Assembly (NCBI GenBank): GCA_017792445.1
Contig: CP051232.1
Coordinates: 1,116,001 to 1,180,000, forward strand
Reading direction: 5' to 3'
Length of the DNA stretch: 64,000 bases
DNA from: Maritimibacter sp.
GTDB lineage: Bacteria; Pseudomonadota; Alphaproteobacteria; Rhodobacterales; Rhodobacteraceae
The translations under genes were made by a program, and so were the position numbers. The notes beneath the pieces are model-generated. The model ran no database searches and was not told the DNA's origin. It saw nothing but the letters and a program-made list of their open reading frames with translations. This document shows, one piece after another, positions 5,850 to 27,716 of this stretch. Numbering within the stretch: the first letter of the stretch is position 1; every line of letters begins with the position of its first letter.

Positions 5850-7943
5850 TCAGTTCCGCCCTTCACGCAGCCAGGCGCCAACCATCAACAGACCCGCCAG
5901 CAGCAGGAACAGCCAGCCCGACACCAAGGGTGTCAGCCGCACGTCAGCGGTCAGATAAGCCTCGCGCGGGGTGATCCCCAGCCAGCCCCGCCCCGATGCC
6001 GGGCGTCCGGCGCGCACGGCGCGCAGGTCGGGCACACCGTCCTCGATCCGCGCGACCCCGCCGCGCGTCGCCTCGACCTCGGGCGCCAGCAACTCGTCGC
6101 TGGCGATGGTCGCCTCGAACTCGCGCGGCGCCGCAGGCCCAAGGGCGATCACGGACTCTTCTTCGCCTTCGCGCAGGCGGTACAGCCCGATCTCCGGTCC
6201 CTCGACGGTGGCCTCCCACCGTCCGGGCCGAACCTCTTCCAGCGGCACCATCATCACGGTGCCATCGGGTGCGGTCAGTTCCACCTCGCCCACGCCGTCC
6301 TCCAGCGTGCGGCGCACGATCGTCATGGTCTGCCCCTCGGCGGTGGCGCTAAGCGCCTCCTCCTCAAGTTCGGGCTCTTTCATCATCCAGTGCGCCAGCC
6401 GCCGCAGCAGTTCCAGTTGCGGCCCGCCGCCCTCGAAGCCCCGGTTCCACAGCCACGCATGGTCCGAACCAAGCAGCGCGATGCGCCCTTCTCCGACGCG
6501 GTCCAGCACCAGCAGGGGGCGGCCGTCCATGGCGCTCATCACGGTATTGCCCGAGGTCGCCTCTAGATCGACCAGCCGGAACCAACGCCCCCAGCGCGGA
6601 CCGTCATCCTCGGCGTCGCCCTCGCCTTCGATCATTTCGACCGGCGAATAGGCCTCCAGCCCGGCGGTCACCGGATGGCGTTCGCCCAACTCGGTGATCT
6701 CGGGCTTATAGCCTTCCTCCAGCACGATGCTTGTCGGCGCCGCCGGCAGGATCTCGGCCAGAGGCGAGCGATACAGCGAATTCGCAGTGGCAAAGTCCGG
6801 CCCCGCCGCAACCAGCACCGCGCCACCGTCCTCGACATACTGGCGCACGTTGTCGAGATACAGCGAAGGCAGGATACCGCGCCGCTTGTAGCGGTCGAAG
6901 ATGATCAGGTCGAACTCGTCGATCTTGTCGATGAACAGCTCGCGCGTCGGGAAGGCGATCAGCGACAGCTCGTTCACCGGCACGCCGTCCTGCTTCTCGG
7001 GCGGACGCAGGATGGTGAAGTGAACAAGATCCACCGACGAATCCGATTTCAGCAGGTTGCGCCACGTCCGCTCGCCCGGATGCGGCTCGCCGGACACCAG
7101 CAGTACCCGCAACCTGTCCCGCACACCGTTGATCTGCACCACGGCGGCGTTGTTGCGGTCGGTCAACTCGCCCTCGGCCTCGGGCACGGTGAACTGGATC
7201 ACGTTCATCCCGCCATGCGGCAACGTGATCGGCAGCTCCAGATCCTCGCCCACGGGCACGTCGAACCGCTGCGGCTCGCCGCCGTCGATGGCGATCTCCA
7301 GCGGCGCGAACCCGGTCTCTGTTGCTGGCACCGCGCCCTGATCCTCGACCCGCAGCGTCAGCGTCACCGGTTCGCCGAGGATGGCGAAGCTCGGTGCGTT
7401 GGTCACCATCAGGCGGCGGTCCCAGTCGGTCTCTTCCCCGGTCAGCAGCACATGCAGCGGCGCCGGCAGGTCGGGCGTGCGGTCGACATCGTGCAGCTGC
7501 CCGTCGGTCAGCAGGATCGCGCCGGCCAGCCGCGCGCGCGGCTCTTCGGCCATCGCCTCGGCCAGCGCGGTCATCAGCAGCGTGCCCTCGTCGCCCTCGC
7601 CATCGCCCAGCGGCACGACGCGCAACTCGGTGTTCTCCAGCCCCGCAACCTCTGCCTCGACCCGCGCGATAGCCTCGGCGGTCTGGTCGGGACGTCCCGC
7701 GATCCGCTGGCTGGCGCTTTCGTCGACCACGAGGATCACGATGTCCGACAGCGGTGCGCGCTCTTCCTGCTGTAGCGAGGGGTTCAGCAGCGCCACCACC
7801 AGCACCGCCGCGGCCAGTCCGCGCAGCCACCAGCCGGACAGACCGCGCCAGACGGCGGCGGCCACGAACAGCACGGCCACGGCCAGAGCCGCCCAGACGA
7901 GCGGCCATTCCAGAAGAGGGTCGAAGATGATCGAGCCGGTCAA
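5850..7943 (-). CDS. Membrane protein with VWA-like and GATase-like regions, last gene of MoxR operon
   Basis: This is a 697-residue protein. Two hydrophobic segments open it (about 12-30 and 38-55). A VWA-like stretch VILVVDESASQ follows (DxSxS MIDAS motif near residue 73), then a beta-rich region, then a Rossmann/class-I GATase-like segment (LIIFDRYKRRGILP... VEDGGAVLVAAGPDF) near 320-370, and a C-terminal membrane helix (about 672-690). This matches the last membrane protein of MoxR-DUF58-DUF4159 operons. The start is TTG, with AAGGG in the preceding 12 nt; no in-frame ATG or GTG lies nearby. Part of that ribosome site comes from the edge of an intergenic repeat (7953-8001). Confidence 0.7.
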   Translation of the reverse strand: MTGSIIFDPLLEWPLVWAALAVAVLFVAAAVWRGLSGWWLRGLAAAVLVVALLNPSLQQEERAPLSDIVILVVDESASQRIAGRPDQTAEAIARVEAEVAGLENTELRVVPLGDGEGDEGTLLMTALAEAMAEEPRARLAGAILLTDGQLHDVDRTPDLPAPLHVLLTGEETDWDRRLMVTNAPSFAILGEPVTLTLRVEDQGAVPATETGFAPLEIAIDGGEPQRFDVPVGEDLELPITLPHGGMNVIQFTVPEAEGELTDRNNAAVVQINGVRDRLRVLLVSGEPHPGERTWRNLLKSDSSVDLVHFTILRPPEKQDGVPVNELSLIAFPTRELFIDKIDEFDLIIFDRYKRRGILPSLYLDNVRQYVEDGGAVLVAAGPDFATANSLYRSPLAEILPAAPTSIVLEEGYKPEITELGERHPVTAGLEAYSPVEMIEGEGDAEDDGPRWGRWFRLVDLEATSGNTVMSAMDGRPLLVLDRVGEGRIALLGSDHAWLWNRGFEGGGPQLELLRRLAHWMMKEPELEEEALSATAEGQTMTIVRRTLEDGVGEVELTAPDGTVMMVPLEEVRPGRWEATVEGPEIGLYRLREGEEESVIALGPAAPREFEATIASDELLAPEVEATRGGVARIEDGVPDLRAVRAGRPASGRGWLGITPREAYLTADVRLTPLVSGWLFLLLAGLLMVGAWLREGRN

Positions 7944-26051: not shown

Positions 26052-26420
26052 GGCGCTCACCCCCGATTGTTTCCGTGATTTACACGGCCGTCATCGCGCC
26101 TGATTGCGGCAACAGTTTGGCAGGTCGTCCCGAATTGTCCGATCGCACCGGTAGCGTTGCCGTGAGGCCCTGAATCCATGGCGAAACGCGCCAGCCCCGG
26201 TCGTTAATCGTGAAAGCAATGAAATATCTGCAACCGTTTCGCGAGCGGCGAACGGCTGCGGCACGTTGAAAACAAGGGGCTGCGGGGATCGGAGGGCGAC
26301 TCGGTTTCCGCCTGCGGCATTTTCCGGCTTAGCGCACGAAAGCTTCGATTGACCGGATCACCGCCCGGGATTACATCCGCGCCGCCGCCACGCAGGCAGT
26401 GAAACACAGGACCTATCGAC
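26052..26420. other. Intergenic region without a supported gene
   Basis: This 369-bp stretch lies between the 54-residue membrane protein gene (leftward) and the first DWA-type peptide gene (rightward). It holds a bulged inverted repeat near 26230-26257 (CCGTTTCGC/GCGAACGG) and a 5-bp hairpin near 26079-26093. A 16-codon ATG-initiated reading frame at about 26219 has no good ribosome site and is not called. Divergent promoters are expected here. Confidence 0.5.
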
Positions 26421-26513
26421 GTGACCAATACCGCTCGGAAGCCGCGCCCGGAGAAGGCGCCGGAGCAACCCCTGCCCTCGCCTGTCGAGTTCAAGGACTG
26501 GGCCAGTATCTAA
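26421..26513 (+). CDS. 30-residue Pro/Lys/Arg-rich peptide ending in F-x-DWA-x-I (paralogue 1)
   Basis: The ORF begins with GTG preceded by AGGA 9 nt upstream; an in-frame TGA lies 21 nt upstream, so no other start is possible. The peptide has K-P-R-P-E-K-A-P at residues 7-14, a Pro-rich middle and the C-terminus VEFKDWASI. The 32-residue product at 27085-27183 has K-P-x-P-x-K-A-P at the same residue numbers and ends FRFTDWAAI, so the two are paralogues. It is followed by an intrinsic terminator (26534-26565). Function unknown; too short for standard gene callers. Confidence 0.6.
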   Translation: MTNTARKPRPEKAPEQPLPSPVEFKDWASI

Positions 26514-26533
26514 AGGCCATTAAGAATATCGAG

Positions 26534-26565
26534 CCGCGCCCGGACCATTTGTTGCCCGGGCGCGG
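26534..26565 (+). terminator. Intrinsic terminator after DWA peptide 1
   Basis: CCGCGCCCGG (26534-26543) and CCGGGCGCGG (26556-26565) form a 10-bp perfect stem with a 12-nt loop, followed by TTT. It begins 21 bp after the stop codon of the 30-residue peptide and supports that ORF as a real transcription unit. Confidence 0.7.
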
Positions 26566-26576
26566 TTTCGCGGGGG

Positions 26577-26759
26577 TCAGCGGCCCCTTAGAAGTTTGCC
26601 GACTTCGCGGACCGCGGCGTTCGCGGCGGCGGCCTTCGGGTTGGACCGGTGCACGCCGGCGCGATAGGCTCCCGGCCGTGCCGAGTGGCTATGAGCCGAC
26701 CGGCTTTTCGAGCGGGCGTAGGTCTTGAGCGCCTTCTTGGCGAATCTCTTCAGCGACAT
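26577..26759 (-). CDS. 60-residue highly basic small protein
   Basis: The product starts MSLKRFAKKALKTYARSKSR and is rich in Lys, Arg, Ser, His and Ala, ending in an Ala-rich helix (AAAANAAVREVGKLLRGR). A GGAGGA site lies 7 nt before the ATG. The composition suggests nucleic-acid or membrane-surface binding; no family is recognised. The gene lies on the opposite strand between the two DWA peptide genes. Confidence 0.65.
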   Translation of the reverse strand: MSLKRFAKKALKTYARSKSRSAHSHSARPGAYRAGVHRSNPKAAAANAAVREVGKLLRGR

Positions 26760-27084
26760 TGGTGCATCCTCCAGTTCGTTCGTGTGTTGCAACACCAACG
26801 GTGCTGGCCGCGCCGGGTTCCCCACGGCTTCCATCGCGGCGGCATGTCGCCGAATGCGGGCGTGCCTTTCGAGAGGTGAATTTCAGCGCGTCCCAAGCAA
26901 TGCGGGCGCCCTTCTTGCCCGGCCGAATTACGAGCCGATCCCGCTGCCCCAAGGCCCGCGATGTCCTGGTCCAGCGACAGCGATGTTTCGGACTGAAAGA
27001 CCCCGTGATCAAGAAAACCTGAACGAATCTGCCGGTGTCGCGTTGGGCACCCAACGTAACGATACCGAGAGGAGATACCTTCAG
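26760..27084. other. Intergenic region between small basic protein gene and DWA peptide 2
   Basis: No supported gene was seen. Frames open on both strands through this GC-rich stretch have no family-like sequence. The region holds a CGGCG/CGCCG hairpin near 26839-26854 and the perfect hairpin at 27041-27056 just before the ribosome site of peptide 2. Divergent promoters are expected. Confidence 0.5.
27041..27056. promoter_or_regulatory. Perfect palindrome upstream of DWA peptide 2
   Basis: CGTTGGG-CA-CCCAACG is a 7-bp perfect inverted repeat with a 2-nt centre, ending 13 nt before the AGGAG ribosome site of the 32-residue peptide gene. It may be an operator or a 5'-leader hairpin. Confidence 0.5.
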
Positions 27085-27183
27085 ATGGCCGACCGCGCCC
27101 CGAAACCCGAACCGGTGAAAGCCCCCAGCCGCCCGCGTCCCCGCCCGATCCCGTTCCGCTTCACGGACTGGGCCGCCATCTGA
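27085..27183 (+). CDS. 32-residue Pro/Arg-rich peptide ending in F-x-DWA-x-I (paralogue 2)
   Basis: The ATG is preceded by GAGGAG about 10 nt upstream. Residues 7-14 are K-P-E-P-V-K-A-P, the middle is an R-P repeat, and the end is FRFTDWAAI. The match with the 30-residue peptide at 26421-26513 (same K-P-x-P-x-K-A-P positions and the F-x-DWA-x-I end) indicates duplication. The conserved hydrophobic/acidic tail suggests a binding motif displayed at the C-terminus after a flexible cationic arm, which is inference. Confidence 0.65.
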   Translation: MADRAPKPEPVKAPSRPRPRPIPFRFTDWAAI

Positions 27184-27344: not shown

Positions 27345-27716
27345 ATGGCACGCCTGTTAAGACCATTCAGCATCCTTCCCGCCCGCGTGGCTCAGGAATA
27401 TCGCCGGTCCTCGGCGGTGGTCAGCTTCAACCACGACGGGCTCGAAGTCGCCCGGGTTCGGAACCGAAGCCGCTATCTGCCGCTGTGGCACGTGATCTTC
27501 TTCATCTATTTCGCGATGCTCATGCGCCTTGTCGTGGCAGCCGATATCGGCACAGCCAGCTACGAGGCGCGGATGGAGGAGATGCGCAACGGTCATGCGC
27601 TGGAACGTGTCGCGGCACGGGTGATGCACATGGACCCGGTCTCGCGCCAGTTGGCGGTGCAGATCCGCGCCGGGCTGACCTATCTGAACCAGCGCATTCT
27701 CGACCGCCGCGTCTGA
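27345..27716 (+). CDS. Small membrane protein of unknown function (123 aa)
   Basis: The protein has a basic N-terminal half (MARLLRPFSILPARVAQEYRRS, then SFNHDGLEVARVRNRSR), one membrane helix (LPLWHVIFFIYFAMLMRLVVAADIG, about 47-71) and a helical C-terminal domain (ARMEEMRNGHALERVAARVMHMDP). No named family recognised. The ATG at 27345 has AGGAAG 6 nt upstream; an alternative ATG lies 24 bp upstream. It is convergent with the ParA-like gene. Confidence 0.65.
   Translation: MARLLRPFSILPARVAQEYRRSSAVVSFNHDGLEVARVRNRSRYLPLWHVIFFIYFAMLMRLVVAADIGTASYEARMEEMRNGHALERVAARVMHMDPVSRQLAVQIRAGLTYLNQRILDRRV

Follow-up and report, generated by a model that had tools for sequence, protein, structure and literature searches.

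What makes two very short proteins of one bacterial genome end in almost the same seven residues? The question is raised by the window analysed here, a stretch of 64,000 nucleotides from Maritimibacter sp., a member of the Rhodobacteraceae (contig CP051232.1, positions 1,116,001 to 1,180,000), which carries two small open reading frames (ORFs) on its forward strand. ORF 1 (26421..26513) has a GTG start and a TAA stop and encodes a Pro/Lys-rich protein of 30 residues (MTNTARKPRPEKAPEQPLPSPVEFKDWASI), with the ribosome-binding site AGGA at 26408..26411 (+), and ORF 2 (27085..27183) has an ATG start and a TGA stop and encodes a Pro/Arg-rich protein of 32 residues (MADRAPKPEPVKAPSRPRPRPIPFRFTDWAAI), with the site AGGAG at 27070..27074 (+). 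Searches with patterns anchored at the stop codon place the tail FKDWASI and its stop at 26490..26513 (+), and the tail FTDWAAI and its stop at 27160..27183 (+). Frames, starts, ribosome sites and last residues are all as a sequence-only reading of this DNA had described them, and its observation of a paired C-terminal ending is confirmed as real and as larger than first described: the tail is conserved far above chance, is anchored at the stop codon, and is not above chance outside the family. With modest confidence, we favour the view that the ORFs belong to a Rhodobacteraceae family of probably disordered microproteins that would dock onto one shared partner by their C-terminal tail.

The main search looked in the DNA for F-x-D-W-A-x-I ending at a stop codon, with a pattern that also lets TGG through as the last codon; the same pattern reversed served as control. 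In related Rhodobacteraceae, where the sequence-only reading had proposed to look for the motif, it stood far above this control, with 21 matches, spread over 13 of 61 relatives, where the reversed pattern gave 2. All five genomes of the genus carry the tail (13 matches, 2-4 copies each, control 0), and 124 matches are listed in 102 of 394 family genomes against a single control match, 122 of them at a stop codon and 2 reading TGG (G227, G277). The class set held 289 genomes, 4 of them family members, and among the 285 outside the family just 3 matched, all with TGG rather than a stop, against 2 for the control. A stricter tail pattern, run over a genome collection (84,980 species by its description), returned 57 stretches, where about 2 would be expected by chance (our own arithmetic, with equal base frequencies). 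By their titles, 56 of the 57 come from genera or groups that we take to be Rhodobacteraceae or Rhodobacterales, and one is titled Maritalea mobilis DP3N28-3 (Devosiaceae); this label is probably wrong, since the locus (L182) is of the Rhodobacteraceae type, with homologous TfoX_C, ndk and ABC-protein genes whose products are 63-85% identical to those encoded at Rhodobacteraceae loci.

A broad tail pattern matched at three places only in the window's own genome (reversed control, 4 matches), the third copy ending YNDWASI and lying before TfoX_C and an opposite-strand ndk gene (L208). The three predicted proteins differ nearly everywhere, yet they close with near-identical seven residues. The motif followed by a sense codon was absent from the 5 genus genomes and occurred 15 times in 37 genomes (reversed control 7), and none of these 15 cases sits within a short Pro/Gln-rich frame, which argues that the motif acts as a C-terminal one in the searched genomes. 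Two other origins were considered and rejected. Mimicry of a large host protein sharing the tail found no such protein in the own genome, under patterns that skipped some first residues and codons. As for a phage origin, just one of 6 tail-pattern matches in viral contigs (L247) is tail-like and stop-ended by the script's pattern, and its NTDWASI ending belongs to a frame of 230 codons that has no good start, which is not of the small-ORF kind.

A tail-independent test started from TfoX_C (PF04994), whose query matched 76 of 100 family genomes; the loci of 70 were examined, of which 63 were readable by the anchor and 7 were dropped. Upstream of TfoX_C, 32 of the 63 loci have a short ORF that is preceded by a ribosome site and ends in the tail, against 0 of 63 on the opposite strand, and a 33rd case (L126) failed the Shine-Dalgarno (SD) filter alone. 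If the last residue is numbered 0, position -6 of the 33 tails is F (16), I (13), Y (3) or L (1), position -4 is D in all 33, position -3 is W (24), Y (4), F (4) or L (1), position -1 is S (25), A (6), M (1) or L (1), and position 0 is I (29) or L (4). On this evidence the tail can be written more broadly as [F/I/Y]-x-D-[W/Y/F]-A-[S/A]-[I/L]-stop.

The proteins that end in this way are small and otherwise unlike. In the first set of fetched loci, 82 distinct ORFs are closed by the tail, 79 of them 20-65 codons long, lengths that depend on our choice of start; one of the 82 looks like a chance frame (L032) and another is cut by a contig end (L086). Examples are MNQKETAPKGHSFEDWAMI, MKRRIPTPHAQRKPRPNPFRFTDWAAI and MAKQTPKPAQQTGGSSPAQQQGQDSAPSQQQGQTVFRDWASI. 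In a wider locus set there are 132 distinct tails, and for 114 of them a start preceded by an SD match of 4 nt or longer lies no more than 80 codons away; the median length is 39, the minimum of 9 being an artefact of a wrongly chosen start. The arms contain 20% Pro and 12% Gln and are almost devoid of Cys and Trp. Their net charge ranges from -4 to +10, so that the cationic arm of the sequence-only reading describes most of them (91 of 114 are positive) and is not a rule, 13 being neutral and 10 negative. The aromatic and acidic C-terminal tag which that reading had thought conserved did stand: only the tail is conserved, at the stop codon, on arms of low complexity. For ORF 2, AlphaFold2 was given an alignment of 21 rows and predicted a chain devoid of secondary structure (mean pLDDT 75.8, pTM 0.16).

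These frames show purifying selection, which speaks indirectly for a translated product. Over the 132 tails the stop codon is TGA in 109, TAA in 14 and TAG in 9, and synonymous codons vary, as expected under selection on the peptide. For 17 orthologue pairs, the proportions of nonsynonymous and synonymous differences (pN/pS) are 0.186/0.475 in the arm and 0.044/0.275 in the tail, the latter being biased because tails were selected by motif. In the arm of ORF 1, the 17.8 synonymous sites carry 4.2 changes and the 48.2 nonsynonymous sites carry 6.8. Loss of the frames in close relatives, which would have spoken against the sequence-only reading, was not seen in the nearest relative read (G002), which holds orthologues of both ORFs (that of ORF 1 at L008/L015) and at L008 retains the frames, ribosome sites and tails of both. 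The same relative bears on the motif KPxPxKAP, which does occupy residues 7-14 in both window proteins as had been noticed: the orthologue of ORF 1 at L008 keeps it and that of ORF 2 reads MTHRKPEPEPEQSPNRPRP, without it, so the motif reflects composition and is not the shared core it was taken for.

To describe where the copies lie, we sampled 61 ten-kilobase loci with 67 copies (60 chosen places and the window), using gene calls of our own script. Of the copies, 28 have ndk/TfoX_C as their neighbourhood, 20 lie by a cold-shock gene, 3 by ATP synthase genes and 16 in other surroundings, and one genome (G003) has copies at the ndk/TfoX_C, cold-shock and ATP synthase places alike (L096-L098). 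The next gene is a same-strand TfoX_C for 20 copies, another same-strand gene for 26 (15 within 200 nt) and an opposite-strand gene for 21. ORF 1 is followed by an opposite-strand gene, and ORF 2 by a same-strand gene 161 nt downstream. TfoX_C, the commonest neighbour, was considered as an obligate partner and rejected, being absent from 9 of 16 carrier genomes; these carriers were hand-picked, several of them for a missing TfoX_C beside the ORF, so that the fraction gives no prevalence, and G094, among the nine, counts as a carrier through the DNA pattern alone.

We read the tail as a probable docking motif for one shared partner because it alone is conserved, the arms are unlike, the C-terminus is free and the copies lie at several loci. 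In the proposed mechanism the peptides would be translated, and their sole shared part, [F/I/Y]-x-D-[W/Y/F]-A-[S/A/M]-[I/L]-COOH, would fit with its free carboxylate into a pocket of one conserved cellular protein, as a C-terminal short linear motif. The low-complexity, probably disordered arms, rich in Pro, Gln and Lys, could act as flexible spacers or as locus-specific heads, and several small proteins would in this way report to a common partner, tether to it or block it. The docking peptide proposed by the sequence-only reading would fit the features tested, and that reading as a whole is partly supported. A bolder generalisation, which we hold as possible without leaning towards it, is that of a bacterial C-terminal docking code, in which several unlike microproteins in each cell, coming from separate loci and differing in their disordered heads, would address one conserved hub by the same free-carboxylate tail. 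If true, the family as a whole would possess an as yet undescribed system for signalling or tethering. The seven-residue motif, anchored at the stop of unlike microproteins, would offer a handle on the interaction, and a synthetic tail peptide could be used as bait. Microproteins of 19-60 residues that have no profile can be found through the stop-anchored motif together with synteny, and a pair of ORFs without a family becomes a testable family.

A number of points weigh against docking as the explanation. Translation is deduced from sequence and the partner is hypothetical, and conservation of the tail only is compatible with a degron or an arrest sequence as well. As many as 292 of the 394 family genomes do not show the exact pattern, although in some the widened tail takes its place, and 31 of the 63 TfoX_C loci are without such an ORF under the filters used. 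The regular expression at those loci allowed D, E or N at position -4 and fixed A at -2, and the bias in the tail pN/pS belongs here too. In a set of 100 family genomes, 20 of the 76 that have a TfoX_C match carry the exact tail, compared with 2 of the 24 that have none; this higher frequency alongside TfoX_C speaks for a possible looser link to the gene. When the cold-shock gene was taken as anchor, such ORFs turned up at just 2 of 30 loci, namely the window itself and a locus where the ORF lies on the other side of the gene, which makes the window's cold-shock arrangement a feature of a subset.

The alternatives explain parts of this evidence. The stop-anchored position of the motif and its hydrophobic last residue could mark a C-terminal degron, addressed to a housekeeping protease or its adaptor; the peptides would then be short-lived and the arms would do the work, and low-complexity arms with no predicted structure are what a protease needs. 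Such a role is unlikely in our estimation, as the arms vary in length, composition and charge among loci, so that a common function for them is hard to see, and as no larger protein of the own genome has the tail under the patterns tried, though other substrates would be expected. Alternatively, the nascent tail could stall or slow the terminating ribosome and regulate the downstream gene in cis, as leader or arrest peptides do. The arrest peptides SecM, ApdA and ApdP, as presented in PMC10987492, are likewise short proteins with a conserved C-terminal motif and a divergent remainder; those treated there lie upstream of sec/yidC genes, have an export or membrane signal and often contain RAPP-like motifs. 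The arrangement of 46 of the 67 copies, with a same-strand next gene (ORF 2 among them), would suit such a role. A cis-acting leader cannot, however, cover every copy, because 21 of the 67, ORF 1 included, are followed by an opposite-strand gene, and in further contrast with the known arrest peptides no RAPP-like motif and no N-terminal export signal was seen by eye. TfoX_C is missing in the 9 of 16 chosen carriers, stop and synonymous codons vary, and terminator-like sites lie behind 15 of 82 copies where shuffles give 3.8, all of which leave us regarding this role as quite improbable.

Short peptides in which the spacing of D, A and an aromatic residue from the C-terminus does not vary also recall precursors of peptide-derived cofactors or amino-acid carriers, of which PqqA, MftA and LysW are kinds, whose C-terminus would be modified or extended by an enzyme encoded elsewhere. 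No modifying enzyme was present among the recurrent neighbours scanned, there are several unlinked copies per genome, and the peptides have no conserved leader part, so that we give this explanation very little weight. That the ORFs are untranslated and share their end by chance, as might be supposed of such short frames without a database family, is hardly credible, being contradicted by the reversed-pattern and opposite-strand controls, by purifying selection and by synteny between genomes.

The sequence-only reading knew of no named family, and this held: with an E-value limit of 10, Pfam, NCBIfam and PHROGs gave no family for ORF 1 or ORF 2, HMMER being weak for queries of 30 residues, and ORF 2 had no match among PDB sequences. 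Literature searches, whose coverage left out most subscription journals, returned no paper on such a family, and the tail letters in literature text were accidental among the matches listed, none with a longer form such as FKDWASI. The sequence family thus appears to be new, consisting of small disordered proteins that would act through a short motif as a candidate function. Few residues at the tip of a disordered tail that bind a shared pocket after a flexible linker are familiar from the C-termini of SSB and FtsZ; those tips have other sequences and sit on folded proteins, whereas here the whole protein would be linker and tip. Nearest in kind is CrsL of actinobacteria, a disordered protein of 5.7 kDa that orders on binding CarD and also binds RNA polymerase (PMC12709188). 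CrsL is likewise a tiny disordered bacterial protein most conserved in one stretch, and differs in phylum, in sequence, in its known partner and in that its stretch (residues 20-45) is longer and is described as a region rather than as a tail anchored at the stop. Pos19 is a small translated ORF of Rhodobacter sphaeroides, also of the Rhodobacteraceae (PMC5036791); an RpoE pattern lay upstream of 0 of 81 of the small ORFs studied here (0.1 in shuffles, a weak comparison).

With regard to regulation, no shared promoter emerged from a scan for motifs upstream of the small ORFs, and an EcfG-like pattern, which precedes 3 of 81 where shuffles give 0.2, involves too few cases to use. In two genomes (L039 and L058) a near-identical TTGCATAAGTGT..TTTTTACACTAA lies upstream of the small ORF and is possibly an operator. 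These two loci also belong to a subgroup with its own conserved N-terminus, M(T)FCTAH (L009, L010, L012, L039, L058, L064, L159, L188, L201), of which three loci read (L064, L091, L096) are near ATP synthase genes. In Rhodobacterales bacterium HKCCE3408, three small ORFs that end in the tail or in something close to it lie in tandem at 6916-7312 (+) of one locus (L167), a trio that sits at a cold-shock-gene locus (L074).

Within the window, ORF 1 is followed by a perfect 10-bp stem (26534..26565, +; arms 26534-26543 and 26556-26565). It had been called an intrinsic terminator; the stem is there, and as a terminator it is weak because only TTT trails it; our scan for terminator-like sites lists it. 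The palindrome described before ORF 2 is present as the inverted repeat CGTTGGG-CA-CCCAACG (27041..27056), with 7-bp arms and a 2-nt centre, of which L008 has lost the inner part, keeping just the outer CGTTG/CAACG. The opposite-strand gene for a basic 60-residue protein reported between the two ORFs is likewise present at 26580-26759 (-), nested in an 85-codon frame; its product (MSLKRFAKKALKTYARSK...) has no Pfam or NCBIfam match, a GGAGG ribosome site was noted by eye, and relatives occur at L085 and L099. Beyond ORF 2, the frame at 27345-27713 (+) encodes an uncharacterised protein of 123 residues, which has no PHROG match, and no Pfam match was obtained for a longer 154-codon reading or for a relative; this protein is conserved beside small ORFs at 4 loci.
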